Made by a program: the position numbers and the translations under genes. This document shows, piece by piece, positions 9,322 to 23,868 of a stretch of 52,471 bases of DNA. The notes beneath the pieces were generated by a model. It did no database searches, was not told the DNA's origin, and was given only the letters and a program-made list of their open reading frames with translations. Numbering within the stretch: position 1 is the first letter of the stretch; each line of letters starts with the position of its first letter. The stretch lies in the NCBI GenBank assembly GCA_016937995.1, contig JAFGVM010000061.1:1-52471 (forward strand), given 5' to 3'. This DNA comes from Candidatus Delongbacteria bacterium. Its GTDB lineage: Bacteria > UBA4055.

Positions 9322-9341
9322 AAGTATACGATTTATTTTTG

Positions 9342-9370
9342 TTGATTAATTCAAGAATTATTGCTACTTT
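9342..9370 (+). promoter_or_regulatory. Sigma-70-like promoter for the secreted protein at 9429
   Basis: TTGATT (9342-9347), a 17-base spacer and TACTTT (9365-9370), placed about 60 bases before the start codon. It is a match by eye only. Confidence 0.35.
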
Positions 9371-9428
9371 AGAAGTGAGTTATTATATAAAAAAGATTTT
9401 TTATTCTACAAATATTTCGGAGGCTAGC

Positions 9429-11531
9429 ATGAAAAAGACATTGTTTATTCTTGTTTTAATCTTTATTGTATTGCTACATTCACAAAAGAAAATACTCATA
9501 GATAATATTCATGGAGCTGATTTTATTGGAGATGTCGGGAATGAGAATAGTGTAATAGATTTTTACAGTGTATTCCCTGATGATGATCTAACTATTCTAA
9601 CACCTGACAGTTTACCTTTTGACAACATTTTGATTGAAGAGACAATTTCTAGTATTTCAGAGAAAACTTACATAGTTGATCTGCCTGACGGATATTATCC
9701 TGAAACACCTCACTGCCTTTATGTTTATGCAAAATGTTCATCAGAAGATTTTTGGACAAGAGCAAAGGGTATTGTGAGAAATCCAGCCAGTGATATTGTC
9801 GCAGAATTGTTTGAAGGTTCAGGTCATGTTGATGTTGCGTGTGGTCTAGGATGGTTAGTTGAACTTGAATTAGATTCCCTACTTTCTTATGACATAAAAA
9901 TTGGTTACGGTAAATTGTTGTTTGATTCACAAGGTGTTTTAGGTAAATACGACCTAATTGATTATGATATTGTAATAAGAATTAAAGATAATTGTTATTA
10001 CGCTATTGAAGGCAATCCTCCATTATACGAAAACTATGATCTGATAGCGATTGGAAATGCTTTATCAAATGGACTCTCATTTATCAATACTGACCATTAT
10101 TCAGCCTCTATGGCAGACAAACCATTCATTCATTTTTATTCTAATGAAGATACCCAAATTGATATAAATATTGAATTCCCCGGTAATTATACATTACTAT
10201 CTTCAAACCCCCAATTAATCATGAATAAGAGTGAACAGGTAATAAATTCGCTGTGGAAAGATCATAAATTAAATGAAAAAAGTGACAATGAAATAATTTA
10301 CGAAGGGAGTTTTAAAAATAAACTCAATTTTATAGACTTTGAATTTTTTGGAGATCAAGTTACTGTTAAAAATAGATTGAATAATAATATTGACGACCTT
10401 TTTATTTTAAAATATGAATCTGAAAACCAATATAGATTTATGAATATCAGTGAAATGCAACCATTTGCTACTGAAGAGATCTCGGAATGGGAGTATCTCA
10501 ATACAGATCAGGTTCTGAAAAGAATTAAACAAATTTTTTACGAAAGAGGGATAAAAGAAGGGTTATTAAATGAAGAGATCGATCATTTAGTGAATGATTT
10601 TCACTGGATTGAAAGTTTGCTTTACCGGGCAAGAATAAATAAAGATGAATATTTCGGATTCTACCATTTTGGAAAAGAAGTTTATGATAAATTAATTGGT
10701 TTTAAAAGTAATCCGTACCCAGAAGAACTTAATAGGACTATGTGGGTTATGCTTTCATTTATCAAAGATAGAGATTCTGAACCTATTATCACTTTAGACA
10801 GAGAAGCTACAAAAAATCGAATAAAAGCAGGATTGAAAGTTAATGAATATGGAATTGTTGATGAATATTATACGAATAGCTATTTTACAAGTGAGAATGA
10901 TCTTTTCGGTATAGATATTTATACATATGCATATTATTGGTATACTGATTATCTGTACTTTTATAACAATCCAATTGCATTACAGATTGCACATGAACAA
11001 ACATACAATTACTCACTTCAAGGTTTCTACCATTATAATTATCCTGATTATCAAAATTCAGGAATATTATACCGTGATGGGTATGAAGAATATCCTGTAG
11101 TTTATGGCAAAATTATAAATGATAATGGGCAATTAGTTGTTATTGGCACATCATATTTCTTTAAGAGTGGAAATACTCTTGGGAACGCTTTCTTGAATAA
11201 TATAATTACAGAGCTTGTTGACAACAGGATTCTTACAGGGATAGACAATGAACGATTAATAATTGACAATTATGAACTGCACCAAAACTACCCGAATCCA
11301 TTTAATCCTGAGACTACGATCAGTTATTCTCTGCAAAATAATGCTCAAGTGAGTTTGAAAGTATTTAACATTGCAGGTAAGGAAGTTTGTAATTTAGTAG
11401 ACCAGAAGCAGAATAAAGGTTTGCATAAAGTAAATTTTAATGGTTCAGAACTTACAAGTGGAATGTATTTATATAGATTAAGTATTGATGGAAAAGTGGT
11501 ACAAAGTAGAAAAATGATGTTACTGAAATAA
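9429..11531 (+). CDS. Secreted protein with T9SS-type C-terminal sorting domain
   Basis: A 700-residue exported protein of unknown activity. The ATG at 9429 is chosen because GGAGG precedes it and a signal peptide begins there (MKKTLFILVLIFIVLLHSQ); the frame runs 90 bases further upstream without such support. The last 85 residues form a type A sorting domain: NYPNPFNPETTISYSL, VSLKVFNIAGKEV, SGMYLYRLSIDGK, SRKMMLLK. In Bacteroidota this sends proteins through the T9SS and is removed on attachment at the surface. The middle is rich in Tyr, Asn and Asp, and no catalytic signature was recognised. It is a single gene closed by a terminator (11557-11582). Of the proteins here only this one clearly carries the sorting domain, which fits the PorX-like regulator at 21177. 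Confidence 0.8.
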   Translation: MKKTLFILVLIFIVLLHSQKKILIDNIHGADFIGDVGNENSVIDFYSVFPDDDLTILTPDSLPFDNILIEETISSISEKTYIVDLPDGYYPETPHCLYVYAKCSSEDFWTRAKGIVRNPASDIVAELFEGSGHVDVACGLGWLVELELDSLLSYDIKIGYGKLLFDSQGVLGKYDLIDYDIVIRIKDNCYYAIEGNPPLYENYDLIAIGNALSNGLSFINTDHYSASMADKPFIHFYSNEDTQIDINIEFPGNYTLLSSNPQLIMNKSEQVINSLWKDHKLNEKSDNEIIYEGSFKNKLNFIDFEFFGDQVTVKNRLNNNIDDLFILKYESENQYRFMNISEMQPFATEEISEWEYLNTDQVLKRIKQIFYERGIKEGLLNEEIDHLVNDFHWIESLLYRARINKDEYFGFYHFGKEVYDKLIGFKSNPYPEELNRTMWVMLSFIKDRDSEPIITLDREATKNRIKAGLKVNEYGIVDEYYTNSYFTSENDLFGIDIYTYAYYWYTDYLYFYNNPIALQIAHEQTYNYSLQGFYHYNYPDYQNSGILYRDGYEEYPVVYGKIINDNGQLVVIGTSYFFKSGNTLGNAFLNNIITELVDNRILTGIDNERLIIDNYELHQNYPNPFNPETTISYSLQNNAQVSLKVFNIAGKEVCNLVDQKQNKGLHKVNFNGSELTSGMYLYRLSIDGKVVQSRKMMLLK

Positions 11532-11582: not shown

Positions 11583-11673
11583 TTGTTTTACAATTGATTA
11601 TAGTCTTATAAATTCTTATTAATGTGTAAGTAATATAAAAGAAGCAAAAAGATATTTTAACCGGAGACATTTG

Positions 11674-14364
11674 ATGTCAAAGAAACTTTTTCTAATAGAT
11701 GGATATGCATTGATATACAGAGCATTCTTTGCATTCGGAACAAAACCGTTAATTACAAAAGAAGGATTCAATGTTAGTGCATTATATGGTTTTTTCAACT
11801 CGCTTTTCACATTAATAGAAAAAGAAGATCCTGAATATATGGCGATAGTACTTGATACAAAAGCGCCAACATTCAGGCATAAAATATATCCTCAGTACAA
11901 GGCTACCAGAGAAAAAATGCCGGAAGAATTAAGTAATCAGATCCCTCTTCTCTATGAAATAATTGAAGCAACAAATATCACTACTATTTTCAAAGATGGT
12001 TTTGAGGCGGATGATCTGATAGGTGTAATAGCAAAACAGGCATCAGAGGAAGGATTTGAAACTTACATTTATTCTTCGGATAAAGACCTTGCCCAATTAG
12101 TGACTGAGAATGTGTTCCTCTATGACCCAAAAGAAATATCTGTTCTGGACCGCGAAGGAATTAAAAAGAAATTCGAACTTTATCCTGAACAGATAATAGA
12201 TTTTTTATCTCTGATGGGAGATAACTCCGATAATATTCCCGGTGTTCCAAAGATAGGGAAGAAGACCGCGATAAAACTGCTACTGGAATTTGGGACTTTG
12301 GAAAATATTTACGAAAATCTGGATAATATCAAAGGCAATGCAATAAGAGAATCGCTGGAGAATAATAGACATTTAGCAGATCTGTCTAAGAAACTTGTAA
12401 CAATAGACACGACCATAGAAATTGATATTGATATTGAAGATACTCATGTAAAGACTCACGATTATGAAAAATTATCCGATTACTTTTTCAAGCTAAATAT
12501 GAAAAAACTTCTGAGATATCTCGAAGAATACAAGGGAGTTGAAACTAAACTGGAAAAAGTTCTAGAATATGATCCTGAAGTTCAGAAATATACTGAGATA
12601 AAAAGCAAAGAAGAGATAGAAGAATTGATAAAAGAGGTAAAAACTAAAAAAAAGTTATCAGTTTTTGCTGAACTGACAGGAAATAATCCATTGGATTTCA
12701 GAATAAAAGGACTGGCAATCTCTACAAAAGAAAATGAAGTGTCATATATAAAAAGTATAGAAAATACCAATAATGAAAGTCAATTAAGCTTATTTCAAGA
12801 AAAAGTAGACAGCATTGAAGATACTCTGTTACTGCTGAAACCTCTTTTCGAGAATCAGAATATTAAATTTATAGGCTATAATTTAAAACCGATGATCCAT
12901 GCTTTGTATAATCACGGTATATCATTTGACGGAAAGATATTTGATCTTCTAATAGCGGACTATATAATGTACTCATCGAACTTCAATCATAGTTTATCTG
13001 CAAGAATATATAAGCTTTTGAACTATAAGATGATCGACCCTAGATCAGATTCTTACAGTGAAGATATCAAAAGTTGTGAAAGAGCTGAGCTGTTGTTCAG
13101 GCTATACTTCAGATCAAAAGAAAAATTTGTCATTGAAAAGGAATTACACTCGGTTTTCGCAGATATAGAAATACCATTAGTTCCAGTTTTAATAGAAGCT
13201 GAGAGAAATGGAATAATCGTTGACCGTGACTATCTGCAGAACATGTCCAATGAGATCAAAGAAGAAACAAAAAAGATAGAGGTCGGTATTTATGAACTAT
13301 CAGGAGAGAAATTCAACATTGATTCTCCAAAGCAGTTAAGTGAAGTTCTTTTTGAAAAATTAAACTTCAAGCATGGCAGGAAAGGAAAAAGTGGAACCTA
13401 TTCCACTGATCAAAGTGTTCTCTCAAAGCTTGCCTCAGAGGGAAATGTAATCGCAGAACATTTATTGAAATACAGAGAGCTGACAAAGTTAAATAACACT
13501 TATGCTGAGGGATTGTTAAAATATATCAACGATAGTACAGGCAGGATACACACTTCATATTTACAATACGTTGTATCTACAGGAAGATTATCCTCGGTGA
13601 ATCCTAATCTTCAGAATATTCCGATCAAGAATGAAGAAGGTGAAAAGATCAGAAAAGCATTCAAGTGTAAAAAAGGATATAAATTGCTGGCAGCCGATTA
13701 TTCACAAATAGAGTTACGTATACTTGCCCATTTCTGCGGAGATGAAAATTTGATCGAAGCTTTCAATAATAACATTGATATTCACACTGCTACAGCGTCA
13801 AAGTTATTTAATGTGCCTTTAGAAGATGTTGATAAAGAGTTAAGATCAAAAGCAAAGACAGCAAATTTCGCTGTACTTTACGGTAAATCGAAATTCGGTC
13901 TCAGTGAGGACATGAATATAAGCTATGAAGAAGCTTCTGAGTTCATTGATAATTATTTTTCTCAGTTCATAAAGATAAAAGAATACATCGACGATACTAT
14001 CGTATATCTTAAGCAGAACGGTTATGTTAAAACACTTTTCGGACGGAAAAGAGAATTCCCGGAAGCCAGATCTTCAGATAAAAATGTTCTTAATGCTGCG
14101 AATAGAGCTGCAGTGAACGCTCCTATTCAGGGTACCTCAGCAGATATAATCAAGATAGCAATGATAGAAATTCATAAAAAGATCGCAAAATTTAGTGCCA
14201 GGATGTTACTGCAGGTCCATGATGAATTAATATTTGAAGTTAAAGAAGAAGAGATCGAGTCATTTTCATTGTTCGTGAAGGATATCATGGAAAATGTTAC
14301 CAAACTTCGTGTACCGTTAACTGTCAACATTGGAGTGGGAGATAATTGGCTCGAAGCACATTAG
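11674..14364 (+). CDS. polA: DNA polymerase I
   Basis: Repair and Okazaki-fragment polymerase with a 5' nuclease domain (about 1-290: LFLIDGYALIYRAFFAF, GFEADDLIG, GDNSDNIPGVPKIGKKTA), a central 3'-5' exonuclease-like domain, and the polymerase (motif A AADYSQIELR with Asp675; motif B RSKAKTANFAVLYG; motif C LLQVHDELIF with His849-Asp850). The exonuclease residues are lost: the expected DxE reads FAELTG, the exo II Asp falls on GYNLKPMIH, and the exo III YxxxD is replaced around SCERAELLF. Proofreading is therefore unlikely, as in Thermus and Bacillus Pol I. The ATG at 11674 is taken rather than a TTG just before it, with CCGGAGA upstream. Length (896 residues) is normal. Confidence 0.95.
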   Translation: MSKKLFLIDGYALIYRAFFAFGTKPLITKEGFNVSALYGFFNSLFTLIEKEDPEYMAIVLDTKAPTFRHKIYPQYKATREKMPEELSNQIPLLYEIIEATNITTIFKDGFEADDLIGVIAKQASEEGFETYIYSSDKDLAQLVTENVFLYDPKEISVLDREGIKKKFELYPEQIIDFLSLMGDNSDNIPGVPKIGKKTAIKLLLEFGTLENIYENLDNIKGNAIRESLENNRHLADLSKKLVTIDTTIEIDIDIEDTHVKTHDYEKLSDYFFKLNMKKLLRYLEEYKGVETKLEKVLEYDPEVQKYTEIKSKEEIEELIKEVKTKKKLSVFAELTGNNPLDFRIKGLAISTKENEVSYIKSIENTNNESQLSLFQEKVDSIEDTLLLLKPLFENQNIKFIGYNLKPMIHALYNHGISFDGKIFDLLIADYIMYSSNFNHSLSARIYKLLNYKMIDPRSDSYSEDIKSCERAELLFRLYFRSKEKFVIEKELHSVFADIEIPLVPVLIEAERNGIIVDRDYLQNMSNEIKEETKKIEVGIYELSGEKFNIDSPKQLSEVLFEKLNFKHGRKGKSGTYSTDQSVLSKLASEGNVIAEHLLKYRELTKLNNTYAEGLLKYINDSTGRIHTSYLQYVVSTGRLSSVNPNLQNIPIKNEEGEKIRKAFKCKKGYKLLAADYSQIELRILAHFCGDENLIEAFNNNIDIHTATASKLFNVPLEDVDKELRSKAKTANFAVLYGKSKFGLSEDMNISYEEASEFIDNYFSQFIKIKEYIDDTIVYLKQNGYVKTLFGRKREFPEARSSDKNVLNAANRAAVNAPIQGTSADIIKIAMIEIHKKIAKFSARMLLQVHDELIFEVKEEEIESFSLFVKDIMENVTKLRVPLTVNIGVGDNWLEAH

Positions 14365-14365
14365 A

Positions 14366-14455
14366 ATATCCAATGATGAAGATCAATTCCGTAAAGACGT
14401 GATTTATCACGTCTCTATTTATGCCTCGATTCCCGTGTCTAGCACGAGAATGACT
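14366..14455. repeat. Stacked dispersed repeats (C, D and E)
   Basis: Between polA and the cyclase gene: a family C-like piece (AATATCCAATGATGAAG), a family D hairpin AGACGTGA/TCACGTCT (14395-14402 with 14407-14414) and a family E unit (ATTCCCGTGTCTAGCACGAG, AATGAC). The stack ends shortly before the ribosome binding site of the next gene. Confidence 0.6.
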
Positions 14456-14478: not shown

Positions 14479-17400
14479 ATGTTATCAAAATACTTACCGG
14501 CACATTTTACTGAGATCTATAGTGAGATCAGGAAAAAAAAATTCGTAAGGAAGAACGGTAGTGTAATGTTCGCAGACATTTCAGGTTTTACTAATATGAG
14601 TGAAAAACTTACTTCAAAAGGTAAGGAAGGTAGCGAAGAAATCTCAAGGATCATCAATGAAGTTTTTGAGAAACTGATCACAATTGTCAGTTCATCTGGA
14701 GGATCGGTATATAAATTCGGTGGTGATGCGATAACTGTATTTTTTCCGGATAGTATTGAGAAGAAAATTGTATTAGATACTGCTATAGAAATGCAGAAAT
14801 CTATAGATGAATTTTCAAATATCAAAACAATAGCAGGTATTTTTTCTTTAAAAATGAAAATAGGTCTGGCTTATGGCAGTTCTCTGATCGGTCAACTCGG
14901 AAAGGAGAGTAAAGGATATTTTCTAGTAGGAGGAACACTTGACACTGCCTGTGATTGCGAGCACAGTGCGATCCAGGGTGATATTGTTGTCACCAAAGAA
15001 TTCTTCGGTATTTTAGAAAAAAGCAATTACGAGAAAGTTAAGAAATTTTACAAAGTGAATTATAACTTAAAAACTTCTACGGGGATAAAACTTAAAAAAA
15101 TAAAAAGAACACAGGCAAAATGGCACAATGAATTTATCCATGAAGTGTTAGTTAATAGAGAAATGTCAGGTGGTGGTACCAAGTCCGGAGAATTGAGGAA
15201 TTGTACAGTGGTATTCCTCAATTTCACAGGTGTAGAATATGGAAATAAATTCAACTATGATTCACTTAACAGTTTTTATACTTTAGCGGTATCCACAGTA
15301 GGCAAATATAATGGTTTTATAAATAAGATCGACATGGGGGATAAAGGAAATAAGCTGATAATCCTGTTTGGCGCTCCGGTCTCAACCGAGAAGAACGAGG
15401 AATATGCCTTAAGAGCTATGGAAGAACTAAGAAATCTATGCCCAGAAGAGATAGATGTTAGGATCGGAATTAATGCCGGAAATATATATTTCGGTGTCAT
15501 CGGAGCTTCTCATAGAAGAGAGTTCACTGTTATGGGGAATGCTGTTAACTTAAGTGCCAGACTAATGGCTTCCGCTGATAAAAACGAGATAATAATTTCA
15601 TCACCGATTTGCAAGAAAGTTCCTGAGATTGAAATAGAGAATACAAGAAAACTTAAACTAAAAGGTGTGAAAGAATTATTTGAAGTATCATCTTTTAATC
15701 GTATTTTGGAAACGAGGAAGAGTAAAAGATTTAAATTGATCGGCAGAGAAAAGGAACAGAAGCAGTATAATGATGTTATTGACAAAGGAAAAGCTTTCCT
15801 GATCAATATCAAAGCAGAAGCAGGATTAGGTAAGTCAGTTCTTGTAAATAAATTTTTTGAAGATAGAATAAAGAAATGTAAATGTTATCTTGTCAACTGC
15901 CTAAGTTATACAAAAAATAATTCATTTTATGTAGTTAAAGAATTTATCTCAATATTCTCAGGAATTAAAATATTTGATGATCAAAATACAAAATTGTTAA
16001 AATTAAAGTTGCTGTTAAAAAAAATTGGAGAAGAAGAGATTACTGACCTATATGCTTCTTTTCTTTCCTGGAAAGATTTTGAGGGAAATAGAGCTGATCC
16101 GGGATTAAAAGATTTTTTTAAGGATGTCACAACAACAATTTTCTATAAACTTATTAATGACGAAAAAGTATCACTTTTTGTCGAAGATACTCACTGGATG
16201 GATTCCGCATCAGTTGATTTTTTTAAGACGCTTTTAAGTATATTTGATAAAAAGGTTAATGCTGGACAGCTTCATTTTGTTTTCAGACCTGATAGTCAGA
16301 TGGTGCAGTTTGAGGAAAATGAAAATGCATTCACAATAAATTTGGACAATCTTGAATATAATGACGGGAAGGAATTTCTTTTACAAAAGTTTAATTTAGC
16401 ATCTATATCTAAAAGAATTTATGATCAGATATATTTGAAGACAAAGGGGAATCCTTTTTTTATTGAGGAAATAATGCTTTCTCTGAAAAATGACGGTAAC
16501 TTTATTGAAATTTCAGAGAGGTCTGATGAAGTAAAGATCAAAGACATGTATATGTCTGAAAGAGACAGAGAATTAGCTATTCTTGAAAAACAGGATGTTA
16601 AGTATAAGCTTAAACCTTCGGTAAAATCAATAAATATACCTGATAACGTAAATGATATGGTACTTGCAAGAATCGACAAACTTGATGAGAATAGCAAGAC
16701 TATCTTAAAGATATCATCAGTGATCGGAAGAGTATTTCAATTTGATATATTAAAGCAATTGCAAAATCTTAAGGAAATAGCAGAGAAACTTAATATCAAA
16801 GACAGTCTATTTGATCTTACTAAATTCGATCTAACACTTTTTGAGGAGACAAGTGAGAATGAATATCTCTTCAAACATGCAATTACACAAGAAGTTGCCT
16901 ACGAAACGCTGTTATTTTCGATGAGAAGAAAATTCCATTCAAGTATTGCAAAGCTTTACGAAGAGAATTATAAAGGGAATATAGCTGATGCTTACGAACT
17001 TTTAGCTTATCATTACAAACATACAAACGATAAAGATAAAGCAAAATACTATCTGTTAAAGTCAGCAGTCTCAGCTAAAAATAAATTTTCTTACAAAGAA
17101 GCATTTGGTTATTTAAAAGAATACAGAAAGTATAAAATGACTCAAGAAGATAAAGCAGAGAGTTATTTTTACGATATAGAGATGTACACCTTATTGGAGA
17201 AAAATAAAAAAGGAATGCAAATATGTGACAAATTAATACAAAAATTTCAAGAAGGAACTGTATATAATCAAAAAGCCAAAATAAAGAGGATAAATCTTTT
17301 AAGAAAAAATGCAGAATATGAAAATGGGATCAAAGAATATGAAAAATTAGGATATTTTTTAAATCCAGATCTTGAGATAGAAGCAACAATTGAAAATCTG

Positions 17401-18381
17401 CTTTGCAAAATTTGGCAACGAAAAAATGAAAATTTGGATAAGTATATTTTAAAGCTCGATAAAATGATCCAAAAGTCCGAAATAGAACGATTTAGAGTTA
17501 ATTTACTTGAAGTGAAAGGTTTAAGCTTATTTTATTCTAGAGAATTTAATAAGGCTATAAAATTGTATAAATCATTGGTGAAGATAACAGATAATTTGAA
17601 ATTATATAATGAAAAATTTATGGCTTTACAAAATATCGCATCTTCTTATGGTCAATTAGGGAATCTTGAAAAAGCTTCCGAATATTATGAAAAAGTATTT
17701 TTGGAAGCTAAGAAAATTCACAATTTCAGACTTATTATGCGAGCAACTGACGGACTTGCTAAAATCTGTTATGTTAAAGGTGATTTTAAAAATGCAGAGA
17801 AATACATTAATGATGGCATTAAACTTACAGATCGAACAGGTAAAATTAAAATTAAAGAATTATTGCTTGAAAGTCTCAGCAATATTAGACTTGCACAAGG
17901 AAGATATGACAATGTTTTAAAAATCTGTGAAGAAAGAGAAGAACTTGCTCGAAAATTCAGTGATGATACTAGACTGGCAATAATATGGGATATTAAAGGT
18001 GATACGATCTATAAAAAAGGTCAGTTTAAGAAAGCTTTAAAGATATATAAGGATAATTTAGCTTTTTCAAAAAAGATCAACTATGCTGTAGGAATAGGAC
18101 ATTCATACGGAAATATAGCTAATTGTTATGCTGAATTAGGGAATATTGATGAGAGTATTGATTATTATAAGAAACAGATCGAATACTCTAAAGAGCATAA
18201 TGATATTTTCTCTGAAGGTAAAGCCATGTTCAATCTGGCGTATACATATTACGAGGACCTTAAAGATATTGTGGTTGCAAGAGAGGCTTTTCAAATTGCA
18301 AGGGACATTTTTGAAAAAATCGGGTTTAAATCAGGTTTGGACCAGGCAATTGAAATGCTTAATACAATTGATAAGGAATAA
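14479..18381 (+). CDS. Tandem class III adenylyl cyclase with AAA ATPase and TPR domains (soluble-AC-like)
   Basis: A 1300-residue predicted cAMP-making sensor. Domain C1 (about 22-200) keeps both metal-binding Asp (Asp33 in FADISGFT, Asp83 in FGGDAI) but lacks the transition-state pair. Domain C2 (about 235-400) lacks the first metal Asp (Asn248 in FLNFTG) but has the complementary residues: Lys289 (GDKGN) and Thr350 (FTVMG), which suggest ATP, plus Asn357 and Arg361 (VNLSAR). C1 and C2 should thus form one catalytic site, as in mammalian soluble adenylyl cyclase. Next come a STAND/AAA ATPase (Walker A AEAGLGKS at 446-453, Walker B LFVEDTHWMD) and a long helical TPR-rich C terminus (about 850-1290). 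There is no signal peptide or membrane span, so it is cytosolic. AAGGACG precedes the ATG. The porX operon follows. Confidence 0.85.
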   Translation: MLSKYLPAHFTEIYSEIRKKKFVRKNGSVMFADISGFTNMSEKLTSKGKEGSEEISRIINEVFEKLITIVSSSGGSVYKFGGDAITVFFPDSIEKKIVLDTAIEMQKSIDEFSNIKTIAGIFSLKMKIGLAYGSSLIGQLGKESKGYFLVGGTLDTACDCEHSAIQGDIVVTKEFFGILEKSNYEKVKKFYKVNYNLKTSTGIKLKKIKRTQAKWHNEFIHEVLVNREMSGGGTKSGELRNCTVVFLNFTGVEYGNKFNYDSLNSFYTLAVSTVGKYNGFINKIDMGDKGNKLIILFGAPVSTEKNEEYALRAMEELRNLCPEEIDVRIGINAGNIYFGVIGASHRREFTVMGNAVNLSARLMASADKNEIIISSPICKKVPEIEIENTRKLKLKGVKELFEVSSFNRILETRKSKRFKLIGREKEQKQYNDVIDKGKAFLINIKAEAGLGKSVLVNKFFEDRIKKCKCYLVNCLSYTKNNSFYVVKEFISIFSGIKIFDDQNTKLLKLKLLLKKIGEEEITDLYASFLSWKDFEGNRADPGLKDFFKDVTTTIFYKLINDEKVSLFVEDTHWMDSASVDFFKTLLSIFDKKVNAGQLHFVFRPDSQMVQFEENENAFTINLDNLEYNDGKEFLLQKFNLASISKRIYDQIYLKTKGNPFFIEEIMLSLKNDGNFIEISERSDEVKIKDMYMSERDRELAILEKQDVKYKLKPSVKSINIPDNVNDMVLARIDKLDENSKTILKISSVIGRVFQFDILKQLQNLKEIAEKLNIKDSLFDLTKFDLTLFEETSENEYLFKHAITQEVAYETLLFSMRRKFHSSIAKLYEENYKGNIADAYELLAYHYKHTNDKDKAKYYLLKSAVSAKNKFSYKEAFGYLKEYRKYKMTQEDKAESYFYDIEMYTLLEKNKKGMQICDKLIQKFQEGTVYNQKAKIKRINLLRKNAEYENGIKEYEKLGYFLNPDLEIEATIENLLCKIWQRKNENLDKYILKLDKMIQKSEIERFRVNLLEVKGLSLFYSREFNKAIKLYKSLVKITDNLKLYNEKFMALQNIASSYGQLGNLEKASEYYEKVFLEAKKIHNFRLIMRATDGLAKICYVKGDFKNAEKYINDGIKLTDRTGKIKIKELLLESLSNIRLAQGRYDNVLKICEEREELARKFSDDTRLAIIWDIKGDTIYKKGQFKKALKIYKDNLAFSKKINYAVGIGHSYGNIANCYAELGNIDESIDYYKKQIEYSKEHNDIFSEGKAMFNLAYTYYEDLKDIVVAREAFQIARDIFEKIGFKSGLDQAIEMLNTIDKE

Positions 18382-18504: not shown

Positions 18505-19017
18505 ATGAAATTGACCAACATTTTAATTATCAGTATACTGAGCACATTTTTGATCACAGGCTGTACACTTACCCCAACTATCAATCCAGGCAAAGTTACA
18601 GATGATGCTGATATGAAAAAAGTTGAAATTCCAACAGTTGAAACGGATTACAAACCAAAACTTGATAAAAATATAGCTAAAGAAAAAGCAATATTAGCCA
18701 ATTCATATATCCTTGATAAAGTTCAGGTATCTAAAAAGAAAAACGGGATACTCATCAGATTCAAGTACGACGGAGAAGATCCTAAAGAAAATATTTCTAC
18801 ATTCTTTAGTGGTGACAGATTTTTCAATATAACTTTTTTTAAAGGTAAATTCAGTTCAAATATAAAAAACAGTCTTTATAATGGATCTATAATTCAGAAT
18901 TTGCAATTCTTTGAATTCGAAGAATCAGTTCAAGTTACAGTAAGACTGAAAGATGATCACAAATCCACTTTTATCCAGACAGATGATGAATATATTACTA
19001 TCTCAGTGTTCAGTTAA
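18505..19017 (+). CDS. Lipoprotein with an AMIN-like domain
   Basis: A 170-residue lipoprotein. The ATG at 18505 is chosen because ATAAGGAA lies before it and a lipoprotein signal peptide starts there (ILSTFLITGC, Cys about 20); the frame stays open for 41 codons further upstream. After a charged linker, the C-terminal half (about 75-168) alternates beta-strand-like segments (LDKVQVSKKKNGILIRFKYD, FFNITFFKGKF, VQVTVRLKDD, DEYITISVFS). This recalls the AMIN domain that localises envelope proteins to peptidoglycan; the resemblance is by eye. It is the first gene of a tight operon with a TPR protein, a second lipoprotein and porX. Confidence 0.65.
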   Translation: MKLTNILIISILSTFLITGCTLTPTINPGKVTDDADMKKVEIPTVETDYKPKLDKNIAKEKAILANSYILDKVQVSKKKNGILIRFKYDGEDPKENISTFFSGDRFFNITFFKGKFSSNIKNSLYNGSIIQNLQFFEFEESVQVTVRLKDDHKSTFIQTDDEYITISVFS

Positions 19018-19033
19018 CAATGGTTAAGGAATA

Positions 19034-20440
19034 ATGAAAAAAAAACTGATAATATTTTTAATAGTTCTATTTGCTTATTTGAGTTTAAATGGCAATACTA
19101 CGAAAAAGTATGAAAAATATGACAGTATTGCGACCCATTACCTTCTCAATGCCCTTATGTTTGAAGAATTTACTGATTTTGAAAGAGCTATCATTAATTA
19201 TGAAACAGCTTACAACCAGAGTAATTCGAGCACATTTCTGATAAATAAGGCAGTGGATGAATATTATCTGGGAAATGATGAAAATGCACTAAAGATATTT
19301 GAAGATATTGATGATATGCCAAAGCATTTATTGAAATATAGATATTATCAATATATTATGAGTAGTTCTGTCAGAAATGAAAATATCAGCAAGGAAGCGC
19401 TTAATGACCTGATAAAATTATATTCCGAAAAAGATTCAAAAAGTAAAATAAAGGAGGGGATGTTCCTCCTTGAAAAATTACTGAGTAATTATAAAAAATA
19501 TAACAAAGCTTCATATTTTGAACTTTTTCTAAAGAATGCTTTACTTAGAGATATTTCACAGGTGCACAGAGAGTTTTTCTCTGCTGTATTATTTAAGTTT
19601 TATTCAAGTGTTGAAGTAAATAATGAAAAAGTTATAAATTATGTGGACAGTCTCCTTGAAAACTATAAAGAGAGTGATTATAATCAGCTGGTATTTGTGT
19701 ACGATGAATTGATAGCTACAAAAAGATTGGAACTTGCGGAGAAAGTGCATGATGTTTTAAACAAAGTAAGATATTTGGATCCCGAGTATTATATTTTTAG
19801 TTACACAATGGAAAAAGCTAAGGGGAATTCAAAGAAAACCAGAAAGATAATCAGTTCTGCCCAGGATAGTTATCCGGGTGTCTATTTTGAACTGATGTCA
19901 CTTCAGCAGTTCGTAAATGATAAGGAATTTAAGAACGCTAACATAGTTTATAATAATTTAGTGGCTGAACATCCAGAAGACAAGAACATTTACTATAGAT
20001 ATATTATGTCATTGATTGAAAACGATCAAATAGATAAAGCAATTGAAATTTACGAAACAGCGATTAATAAATTTCCTGAAGAAATATCTATGAGGAACAA
20101 TTATGCATATCTTTTGGTTGAGCATAATAAAGATATCGAAAAAGCATTAGAATTATCAAATTATGCTGTTGAAAAAGAGCCTGAAAATATTTCTTTCCTT
20201 GATACTTTAGCATGGATATATTTCATAAAAGGTGATTATATAAATGCTGAAATTTATATTGATAAAGCTTTTGATCAGTCCGGAGTGCTGGCAGACCCCA
20301 ATTCAATGGAATTATTCGATCATTATAAAAAGATAAAGACAAAATTAATAAAGTATGATGATATTCAAAAGATAAAAATAAACGAACTGACTATAGCTTT
20401 GAATGAGTGCATTACTTCAGCAATGAATCTATTAAAATGA
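19034..20440 (+). CDS. Exported tetratricopeptide-repeat protein
   Basis: A 468-residue protein with a signal peptide (KKLIIFLIVLFAYLSLNG) and then helical TPR-type repeats along its whole length. The clearest are about 300-400: KNIYYRYIMSLIENDQIDKA, IEIYETAINKFPEE, NNYAYLLVEHNKDIEKALEL, and LDTLAWIYFIKGDYINAEIY. TPRs scaffold protein complexes; here they would act in the periplasm or at the outer membrane. It starts 16 bases after the lipoprotein gene with TAAGGAATA before the ATG, and overlaps the next start (ATGA). A TPR gene followed by a DUF4292 lipoprotein gene is an arrangement I recall from Bacteroidota; there the usual third gene is a cell-wall hydrolase activator, here it is porX. 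Confidence 0.8.
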   Translation: MKKKLIIFLIVLFAYLSLNGNTTKKYEKYDSIATHYLLNALMFEEFTDFERAIINYETAYNQSNSSTFLINKAVDEYYLGNDENALKIFEDIDDMPKHLLKYRYYQYIMSSSVRNENISKEALNDLIKLYSEKDSKSKIKEGMFLLEKLLSNYKKYNKASYFELFLKNALLRDISQVHREFFSAVLFKFYSSVEVNNEKVINYVDSLLENYKESDYNQLVFVYDELIATKRLELAEKVHDVLNKVRYLDPEYYIFSYTMEKAKGNSKKTRKIISSAQDSYPGVYFELMSLQQFVNDKEFKNANIVYNNLVAEHPEDKNIYYRYIMSLIENDQIDKAIEIYETAINKFPEEISMRNNYAYLLVEHNKDIEKALELSNYAVEKEPENISFLDTLAWIYFIKGDYINAEIYIDKAFDQSGVLADPNSMELFDHYKKIKTKLIKYDDIQKIKINELTIALNECITSAMNLLK

Positions 20441-21180
20441 GACTGATAAAAATAAAATATATGATACTCCTAGTATCGTTCTTTTTCAGTGGATGTATGT
20501 TGTCTTTCGGGGTTAAAGAATTTGATACACAGTCTGTTGATATGGAAGTTGTTAAAAACCGGGTCAAGAAAAATTACAGTAATCTGAATTCACTGGTTTC
20601 AGGCTTTGAATTTTCATATACTACTACCACAGACAGATTACAGTCGAGTGGTTTTTTGTACTTTACCGGTGATGATACTTTATATCTTGAGATAAATGGT
20701 GCTGTCGGAGAGACAGAGGCAGTATTGTTTCTTACCAAAGATTCAGTTAAAGCAGTGAATTATATACAAAAACTTAATATCAGTGATACTTCTGATGATA
20801 ATAGTTTTAACAGGATAACAGGAATAAATATAACCGCTGAAAAGTTCAAAGAATCTTTATACGGGTATGAAAAAATTACTCCGGATGTTTCTATAATAAG
20901 AAGAGATGAGCTTCATATAGAATTGAAAAAGATCATCAGTGATTTCGAACATAAAATTATCAAATTGAATAAGAATCTGCTTATTGAAGAGATAGACGAA
21001 TATATGAATAACATCATACAGATGAAAAAGCAGTATGACTATTTTTATGATCAGGATGGAATAATAATACCTAAAAGGATCAGGATTAGAACATATGACC
21101 CTAACACAAAGCTGACAATATTTTATAACAGAATTAATATAAATGAAAACTATTTAATCGATTTCAGGATGAGTGAATGA
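20437..21180 (+). CDS. Outer membrane lipoprotein, DUF4292/LolB-like
   Basis: A 247-residue lipoprotein. The ATG at 20437 overlaps the TGA of the TPR gene (ATGA) and begins the signal peptide with lipobox (LVSFFFSGC); the frame continues 30 bases upstream inside the previous gene. The region NLNSLVSGFEFSYTTTTDR, SSGFLYFTGDDTLYLEINGA, GETEAVLFLTKDSVKAVNY resembles the LolA/LolB-like beta half-barrel of DUF4292 proteins, thought to carry lipoproteins or lipid at the outer membrane; the assignment is by eye. Its stop overlaps the porX start (ATGA), so translation of the two is probably coupled. Confidence 0.65.
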   Translation: MRLIKIKYMILLVSFFFSGCMLSFGVKEFDTQSVDMEVVKNRVKKNYSNLNSLVSGFEFSYTTTTDRLQSSGFLYFTGDDTLYLEINGAVGETEAVLFLTKDSVKAVNYIQKLNISDTSDDNSFNRITGINITAEKFKESLYGYEKITPDVSIIRRDELHIELKKIISDFEHKIIKLNKNLLIEEIDEYMNNIIQMKKQYDYFYDQDGIIIPKRIRIRTYDPNTKLTIFYNRININENYLIDFRMSE

Positions 21181-22730
21181 ATAATATCCTCTGGGTAGAT
21201 GACGAGATACAACTGCTAAAACCTCATATCCTCTATTTGGAGAAAAAAGGTTTTAAAATGACGACTGCAACAAACGGTTATGATGCTGTGAAATTGGTTG
21301 AAGAACAACATTTTGATCTTGTTGTACTTGATGAAATGATGATAGGAATGGATGGTCTGGAAACATTGGAAAAGTTAAAGGTCGTAGATGAGGAAATTAA
21401 AGCTATCATGTTAACAAAATCTGAGGAGGAAGGTATTTTCCTTCAGGCCGTAGGAAACATGATCAATGATTATTTAACAAAACCTGTTACCCCGCTTCAA
21501 CTTTACCTTACAATTCGAAAAAATTTAGAAAGAGAGAATTTAATTTCAGAGAACTTATCGAAAAAATATATTAAGGATTACAATATTTTGAGAGGAATGA
21601 TCGATTCAACAAACAGCTACGAAGATTGGATCGGGATAAACGAAAAGATTTCTTATTGGGGAATTAAATTAGACGAGATAAATGATGAAAACCTGATCTC
21701 GACATTTAACGATCTTAAATCTGATGCAAATAAGATATTTGGAGATTTTATCCAGAGTAATTACAAGAACTGGATAGACGGTGAAAGTGAGAGACCCGTT
21801 TTCTCAGTTAACATTATTGATAAATATATTATCCCCGATCTTGAAAAACAACAGCTCGCACTCATAGTTATTGATTGTTTTCCTTTCGATCAGATGACTA
21901 TGATCGAGGATACTTTGAAAAACAGTTTTTCAATCATCAAAGATTCTTATTATTCGATCCTTCCTACTTCAACTGAATTTGCCCGGAATGCTATTTTCTC
22001 AGGATTATTTCCCGATGAAATAGAAAAACGTCACACAGATGTTTATTTCGATAATTACGAGGATGATGATAGTAATAACAGGAATGAGGATATTTTACTT
22101 GAAAGACAACTACTGGCAAAGGGTTATGATCTTGGCAAGAAACTGAAGTACTTTAAAATGTACAAAGTTGATGAATTTGCAAAATTTGAAAGCAGGATAG
22201 GTGAATTAAAGGATTCCAGTTTAGTATCAATAGTTGTTAACATGGTTGATTTTTTAATACACGATAAAAAGAAGGATGAGCTGATCAATGAAATGATGGA
22301 TAGTGAAAGTTCATACAGAGCAACTATTAAAAACTGGTTTATCAATTCTCATCTCAATAAGATAATCGAAAAACTGGGAGATCTTGGATTTAAAATAATT
22401 ATTACAACAGATCATGGTGCAAAATTAATAAATAAATTTACAAAAGTGAAAGGTGATGGAAGGTCCAGCAGCGGATTAAGAATGAAATATGGCAAAAACC
22501 TTTCAACCTCGAATAAGAAGCAAACATTTTTCTGGCAAAAACCGTCTGATTATAAAATGCCGAGTTTTTTTGAAGGAAAGAATATAATTCTTGCAAAAGA
22601 AGATCATTGTTTTGTTTTTGAAAAGGGATTAAGTGATTTCTATTCCAAGATAAAAAATACATATCAGCATGGTGGAGTAAGTTTGGATGAGATAATATTA
22701 CCGGTATTGATATTGACAAAAAAAGTGTAA
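21177..22730 (+). CDS. porX: PorX-like response regulator with PglZ phosphatase domain
   Basis: A 517-residue regulator, the same length and domain order as PorX of Porphyromonas gingivalis, which controls the T9SS with the kinase PorY. An N-terminal receiver (1-120) has the acidic pair (WVDDE), phosphorylatable Asp52 (VVLDEMMIGMDG), a switch Thr (IMLTKSEEE) and Lys (YLTKPVTP). A linker precedes an alkaline-phosphatase-superfamily PglZ domain. Its motifs include LIVIDCFPFDQM, a likely nucleophile Thr in LPTSTEFARNAIFSG (Thr264 or Thr266), TTDHGA and YQHGGVSLDE for metal binding. It has no DNA-binding domain. Translation starts inside the stop of the lipoprotein gene (ATGA). No histidine kinase lies in the window. 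Confidence 0.85.
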   Translation: MNNILWVDDEIQLLKPHILYLEKKGFKMTTATNGYDAVKLVEEQHFDLVVLDEMMIGMDGLETLEKLKVVDEEIKAIMLTKSEEEGIFLQAVGNMINDYLTKPVTPLQLYLTIRKNLERENLISENLSKKYIKDYNILRGMIDSTNSYEDWIGINEKISYWGIKLDEINDENLISTFNDLKSDANKIFGDFIQSNYKNWIDGESERPVFSVNIIDKYIIPDLEKQQLALIVIDCFPFDQMTMIEDTLKNSFSIIKDSYYSILPTSTEFARNAIFSGLFPDEIEKRHTDVYFDNYEDDDSNNRNEDILLERQLLAKGYDLGKKLKYFKMYKVDEFAKFESRIGELKDSSLVSIVVNMVDFLIHDKKKDELINEMMDSESSYRATIKNWFINSHLNKIIEKLGDLGFKIIITTDHGAKLINKFTKVKGDGRSSSGLRMKYGKNLSTSNKKQTFFWQKPSDYKMPSFFEGKNIILAKEDHCFVFEKGLSDFYSKIKNTYQHGGVSLDEIILPVLILTKKV

Positions 22731-22743
22731 AAGATAGTTGAGA

Positions 22744-22833
22744 GTGTAGGGGACGCCCAACGATCGACCCCGAAACTGATTAACAAACATAAAAATAGAT
22801 CCCCGTGTGCCCGATGAATCGGGAAGGATGACA
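22744..22833. repeat. Stacked dispersed repeats (A-like and E)
   Basis: GTAGGGGACGCCCAACGATC starts an A-like unit; TAGATCCCCGTGTGCCCGAT and GGAAGGATGACA form a family E unit. Together they fill the gap between porX and lpxD and stop just before the lpxD Shine-Dalgarno. Confidence 0.55.
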
Positions 22834-22854
22834 AAATATAAAGAGGAGAATAAT

Positions 22855-23868
22855 ATGGCAATTAATATTAAGAAGATCGCTGAGATAATAGATGCGGAAA
22901 TCATTAATCACAAAGATATAGAAATAAAAAATGTTAATAAAATCGATGAAGCTGTTGAGTTTGATATTTCCTTTCTGCATAATGAAAAATATTTTTCTCA
23001 TATCAGGACTACAAAAGCATCAGCGGTAATAGTTCCCAGAGATTTTACTACAGATGTGGATATAATTTTATTAAGAGTTAAAGACCCGTATGTTTCTTTT
23101 GTTAAAATAATGTATGAGTTCTATCCTGTCGAGCCGGTAGCAAAACCCGGAATAGACAAAATGACATCCATAGATGAAACTGCTGTAATAGGTGTAAATC
23201 CTTCTATAAATCCGTTTGTATTCATTGGGAAAAATACAAAGATCGGTATAAACGCTCAAATACAGTCAAATGTTACGATCGGTTCGAATGTTAAAATCGG
23301 CGATAATGTAATAATATATTCAAATGTTTCTATCAGAGAAGGTTGTATTATCGGAGATAATGTGATACTTCAGAATGGAGCAATAATCGGTAGTGACGGT
23401 TTTGGTTTTGCTCCGGGGCAGGGAACATATGAAAAGATTCCTCAGGTTGGAAATGTTATTCTTGAAGATAATGTGGAAGTTGGAGCAAATACAGTTATTG
23501 ACAGGTCAACAATGGGTTCTACTATTATTCGTAAAGGCACTAAACTTGATAACCTGATCCAGATTGGTCATAATGTCGAGATCGGGAAGGATGTTGTAAT
23601 AGCAGGCCAGACAGGTATTGCCGGAAGTACTAAGATCGGAGATAATTGTATGATAAGTGGACAGGTCGGATTTGTCGGTCATCTAAATGTCGGTAAAGGT
23701 GTTATGATCGGTGCTCAGGCTGGTATAGTTGGTAACATCAAAGATGGTAGTGTTATTACAGGTACACCTGCTAGAGATCTAAGAAAAATGAGAAAAATTG
23801 ATGCTGCACTTGGTAGACTGCCTGATCTGATATATAAAGTAAGAGAGCTTGAAAAAAAACTGAAGTAG
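22855..23868 (+). CDS. lpxD: UDP-3-O-acylglucosamine N-acyltransferase LpxD
   Basis: Third step of lipid A synthesis: transfers a 3-hydroxyacyl chain from acyl-ACP to the 2-amino group of UDP-3-O-acylglucosamine in the cytosol. The 337-residue protein has the N-terminal uridine-binding domain (about 1-100), a left-handed beta helix of hexapeptide repeats (about 105-315, [20 protein letters not shown] onward), and the catalytic His239 ([10 protein letters not shown]), which falls at the E. coli number. The ATG at 22855 follows AAAGAGGAG. A longer in-frame start at 22807 would translate a dispersed repeat. It is isolated from other lipid A genes here and shows that the cell makes lipid A. Confidence 0.95.

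Follow-up and report, generated by a model that had tools for sequence, protein, structure and literature searches.

The window analysed here, a stretch of 52,471 nucleotides from Candidatus Delongbacteria, carries on its forward strand, at positions 14479..18381, an open reading frame that starts with ATG and encodes 1300 amino acids. This is a real gene, which we annotate as a soluble adenylyl cyclase-like (sAC-like) adenylyl cyclase with the layout C1-C2-P-loop(STAND/AAA_16)-TPR. Pfam recognises two Guanylate_cyc (class III cyclase) stretches in the protein, and the two corresponding domains are C1, at amino acids 27-200 (14557..15078, + strand), and C2, at amino acids 238-405 (15190..15693, +). 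A P-loop ATPase module of the AAA_16/STAND-like kind follows at amino acids 418-600 (15730..16278, +), and a TPR/MalT-like repeat arm, recognised by Pfam, fills about amino acids 900-1300 (17176..18378, +). The AAA_16 match itself, at amino acids 419-587, scores 31.0 bits, slightly below the Pfam cut-off of 32.6; the Walker A motif AEAGLGKS and the Walker B motif LFVEDTHWMD of the module are conserved across orthologs. When the single protein was scanned against the genome_contigs set, one locus matched: the closest relative, from Candidatus Delongbacteria GH31, is 77% identical over the whole length.

The gene stands in a run of genes on the + strand. Upstream lies polA (11671..14364), a conserved neighbour that is followed by a terminator-like hairpin at 14395-14414. 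Downstream come a putative lipoprotein without a Pfam match, conserved beside the cyclase in the family (18505..19017), a TPR protein (19034..20440), a DUF4292/LolB-like lipoprotein (20407..21180), porX (21177..22730), which encodes a response regulator of the type IX secretion system (T9SS) with a PglZ phosphodiesterase domain, and lpxD (22807..23868), the last gene of the conserved run. The identity of porX is clear: the product scores 544 bits with the NCBIfam PorX model, for a cut-off of 300, and its zinc-site motifs PTxTxxARNA, VDxLxH and TTDHG match those of the solved PorX structures (8ted, 7pv7), so that the neighbour is a true PorX of type IX secretion. The genome of the window also contains SprA/Sov, the T9SS translocon. 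Two genes upstream of the cyclase, at 9339-11531, lies a gene whose product carries a C-terminal sorting domain of type IX secretion.

The adjacency to porX, noticed in a preliminary description of this DNA, is strengthened by comparison with related genomes, where it proves to be more than a chance arrangement. In the members of the Delongbacteria-like family that bear an ortholog, the order sAC-lipoprotein-TPR-DUF4292-porX-lpxD is kept on one strand wherever the contig permits, usually with polA before the cyclase. The complete run from cyclase to lpxD is found in five genomes (G000, G002, G005, G006 and G008, locus L014 being the same contig as G002 and counted once), and in two others (G010 and G012) the run is preserved from the cyclase's rear half onward. 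Two family members, G004 and G007, have the TPR-DUF4292-porX genes with no cyclase in the run. Outside the family, comparison of contigs shows that the pairing is not kept: porX and the cyclases are mostly on different contigs; in G251 the two genes lie on opposite strands with about 7 kb between them, and in G298 and G324 the distance is some 23-35 kb. Consequently, any link between sAC and T9SS is local to the Delongbacteria-like clade. Moreover, since polA and lpxD are housekeeping genes, the neighbourhood alone is no proof of a common pathway.

The same preliminary description had proposed a counterpart of soluble adenylyl cyclase with the domain plan of ADCY10, and both the Pfam domains and the comparisons with the human enzyme bear this out. 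In a single-sequence search of all of PDB, the best match of the cyclase region is human ADCY10, C1 and C2 aligning in the same order (E 4e-27). A profile built from 14 bacterial tandem proteins aligns, from position 16 to position 407, with residues 31-471 of ADCY10 in one run, with an E-value of 7.5e-64 against about 1e-29 for the second-best family. The bacterial protein shares with ADCY10 (PDB 4clf, 4cm2, 4oya) the tandem C1-C2 pair, an identical split of the active site, a DKG loop in C2, and a P-loop/STAND module after the cyclase pair; a STAND/P-loop domain is also predicted in full-length sAC (PMC12802110). It differs from the human protein by its short C1-C2 linker, its clear TPR arm and its position beside porX, and by a Cys in place of R176, the Arg of the bicarbonate switch. 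Judged by these sequence comparisons, the protein is a genuine member of the sAC type, and the C1-C2-P-loop-TPR plan is supported. Bacterial adenylyl cyclases with the sAC type of domain structure, P-loop domain included, were reportedly described by Roelofs and Van Haastert in 2002 and by Kobayashi, Buck and Levin in 2004. Since sAC-like enzymes of bacteria are thus already known, the present protein adds one more member to a known kind, and the fresh points are its gene order and a Cys motif discussed below. The TOMM kinase/cyclase fusion family (NCBIfam TIGR03903) resembles the protein in having a cyclase beside an ATPase region of like kind, and matches amino acids 289-893 with an E-value of 8.4e-45; membership was rejected, the score of 153.1 bits being far under the cut-off of 705.75, and no protein kinase domain was seen.

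Alignment with the human enzyme places D33, D83, K127, T350, N357 and R361 at human D47, D99, K144, T405, N412 and R416. As had been claimed from the sequence of the window, the metal-binding Asp33 and Asp83 are found only in C1, the corresponding positions of C2 being occupied by N248 and N291. The companion claim, that Lys289, Thr350, Asn357 and Arg361 are found only in C2, stands for the last three residues, with D155 and D159 at the positions of the catalytic Asn and Arg in C1, and fails for the lysine. The equivalent of human K334, the base-recognising Lys of the motif 'INK', is K283; K289 sits in the G-D-K-G loop 287-290, which matches the human F-D-K-G at 338-341; and K79 stands at the symmetric position of C1, which corresponds to K95 of the human bicarbonate site, so that a Lys confined to C2 is wrong. 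By analogy with known enzymes, the Lys and the Thr of the base pocket argue for ATP as the substrate.

The split is not a quirk of one gene. Among 48 bacterial tandem proteins, taken from the family of the window and from other lineages and thus related sequences whose counts are not independent events, the metal Asp pair of C1 and the catalytic Arg of C2 are present in 48 of 48, the catalytic Asn in 46, and the complete split pattern in 44. Of the 386 genomes searched, more than 30 that do not belong to the family of the window have full-length tandem matches, as counted from the match list. Single-domain cyclases keep all active-site residues in one domain, whose front half aligns with C1 and whose rear half aligns with C2. 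Taken together, these comparisons make the split the norm of a widespread family. The residue split, the ADCY10 alignment and the pattern of the 48 proteins also support what had been anticipated for this chain, that C1 and C2 would form one composite ATP-type active site. An AlphaFold2 model of C1-C2, computed from two alignment rows, has a mean pLDDT of 36, too low for it to be of use. Single-domain cyclases from viral contigs were considered for deepening the C1-C2 alignment and rejected, MAFFT having put their first half on C1 and their second half on C2.

In a single-domain tree, all the bacterial C1 domains cluster with human C1 (100) and all the bacterial C2 domains with human C2 (97). 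The two-residue insertion that gives the D-K-G motif is found in the C2 of human sAC and in 34 of 37 bacterial C2 domains; it is absent from all 28 single-domain cyclases, and no C1 has an insertion at that place. Assuming one shared duplication at the origin of the C1 and C2 of the human and bacterial proteins would account for this grouping, and it is the scenario that we favour; since an AU test does not reject a tree in which human C1 and C2 are grouped together, as expected from an independent duplication in eukaryotes (p 0.43), it is favoured rather than shown.

In the reading that best explains these data, C1 would provide the two metal-binding Asp, and C2 the adenine-recognising Lys and Thr together with the catalytic Asn and Arg, so that the pair, within one chain, would form a single site converting ATP to cAMP. 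The symmetric second site would be degenerate and, without R176, would hold no mammalian-type bicarbonate switch. The most likely role of the STAND-like P-loop module and the TPR arm would be to read a signal, either a protein or a nucleotide, and to gate the C1-C2 pair in response; the cAMP produced would act through the CRP-type and stand-alone cNMP-binding proteins of the genome. Since, in this family, the cyclase gene shares its run with porX and with genes for envelope lipoproteins, the enzyme probably helps to set secretion or envelope output. The protein thus probably functions in the cytosol as an adenylyl cyclase that is gated by a signal and co-expressed with a regulator of T9SS, both its catalysis and its gating being predicted. 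We hold the whole reading, a cytosolic class III adenylyl cyclase of sAC type with a single C1-C2 site, P-loop/TPR gating and a place in one run with PorX, with good though not full confidence; taken alone, the functional link between the cyclase and T9SS is more tentative, and we would put it at somewhat less than an even chance.

Several other readings of the locus deserve to be weighed. The cyclase pair could be catalytically idle or regulatory, binding a nucleotide and passing its output through the P-loop/TPR module; indeed, the equivalents of K334, T405 or N412 have been lost in some members of the wider family, part of which, for that reason, may not consist of active adenylyl cyclases. 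In the ortholog group of the window, however, the known catalytic residues are all intact and do not vary among the orthologs with sequence there, and C2, with 48% invariant positions, is among the most conserved parts of the protein. We consider idleness very improbable here, and the protein very probably an active adenylyl cyclase. The cyclase and PorX could also form a local second-messenger pair, in which cAMP would be made upon a signal from the ATPase/TPR arm and a Cys-x-Cys-x-His motif, and PorX would read or remove the nucleotide. PorX proteins belong to the zinc phosphodiesterases, and cleavage of both linear and cyclic oligoadenylates has been reported for them (PMC11320123); the PorX literature searched does not mention hydrolysis of 3',5'-cAMP, nor does it describe an adenylyl cyclase beside porX. 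Such a pair is improbable in our estimate; if it did exist, type IX secretion would have cAMP as an input. In any case, the conservation of the run with porX suggests that a cyclic nucleotide may feed into the T9SS regulator, a testable idea that is not described in the literature searched.

The remaining alternatives concern what controls the enzyme. The preliminary description suggested a link to CO2 or bicarbonate, and one can imagine a bicarbonate-sensing cyclase that works as ADCY10 does in mammals and couples CO2 to type IX secretion: the position of human K95 is K79 in all orthologs, and a Thr-type active site has been regarded as a mark of bicarbonate response. In human sAC, bicarbonate is held by K95 and R176; before it binds, D99 is kept locked by R176 (PMC12250328, PMC12867704). 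Here this pair is incomplete, the position of R176 being C158 in all orthologs tested, and an Arg at that position is found in none of the 48 bacterial tandem proteins, which, apart from the orthologs, mostly have Ala. Published sACs in which the Lys is kept and the Arg is lost respond to pH and not to bicarbonate, as does that of the sea urchin, which is controlled by pH rather than by bicarbonate (PMC12867704). Consequently, bicarbonate sensing by the known mechanism is unlikely, the suggested CO2/bicarbonate link is weakened, and we give the ADCY10-like reading little credence. The same observations raise the possibility of a cyclase tuned by pH or redox state, in which K79 and the motif C158-x-C160-x-H162 (amino acids 158-162, window 14950-14964), located at the former bicarbonate site, would make of the degenerate site a sensor of protons, thiols or metal. 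All three motif residues are invariant in the orthologs with sequence there, and the class of sequences that keep the Lys and lose the Arg is the one found to be pH-controlled in the sea urchin. However, the sea urchin enzyme has Asn at position 176, and pH control is a result obtained on that protein; the Cys is specific to the orthologs, and no structure shows the two Cys side by side. This form of tuning seems to us rather unlikely, less so than control by bicarbonate, and the reading that we retain remains the sAC-type cyclase gated by its P-loop module and TPR arm. More generally, the sAC layout and the split active site are the rule in this large bacterial set, of which no sampled member has the Arg of the bicarbonate switch. 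This agrees with the view, recently put forward, that control by bicarbonate is mainly a mammalian trait, and it allows the question to be tested on enzymes from bacteria.

A search for CRP or cNMP-binding proteins, proposed as a check of the preliminary description, finds five cNMP-binding proteins in the genome of the window. Two of them, L001 and L005, have a helix-turn-helix of CRP type, and by inspection a GE...R-A cassette, which we take to be the CRP-type cNMP-binding cassette, is present in L001, L002, L003 and L004 and not in L005. At locus L004 (1381-3035), the gene for a stand-alone cNMP-binding protein adjoins that of an apparent potassium channel with a TrkA-like domain, possibly a cAMP-related pair. 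The genome of the window contains at least five tandem cyclases of the sAC-like type. It is thus probable, from these predicted proteins, that cAMP signalling is broad in this genome, and that the porX-linked cyclase is one input among several.

Other cyclases were met in the course of the searches. In G000, the genome of the window, at least four further tandem sAC-like proteins have lengths of 1226-1334 amino acids (C15:3953-5212, C9:35655-36833, C93:7414-8670 and L049), and the rear half of another lies at a contig end (C37:8-1948). A 1255-amino-acid protein of the same genome (L048 1219-4986, G000:C67) has one N-terminal cyclase domain, an apparent membrane segment and then TPR-like repeats. 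Many contigs labelled as viral in IMG/VR (L114-L193) carry single-domain class III cyclases, mostly proteins of about 590 amino acids with the cyclase at the C-terminus, which are candidates for viral cargo or host contamination. Finally, the 2.1 Mb genome G042, from another lineage, encodes about ten long sAC-like proteins (L052-L061), an unusual expansion.
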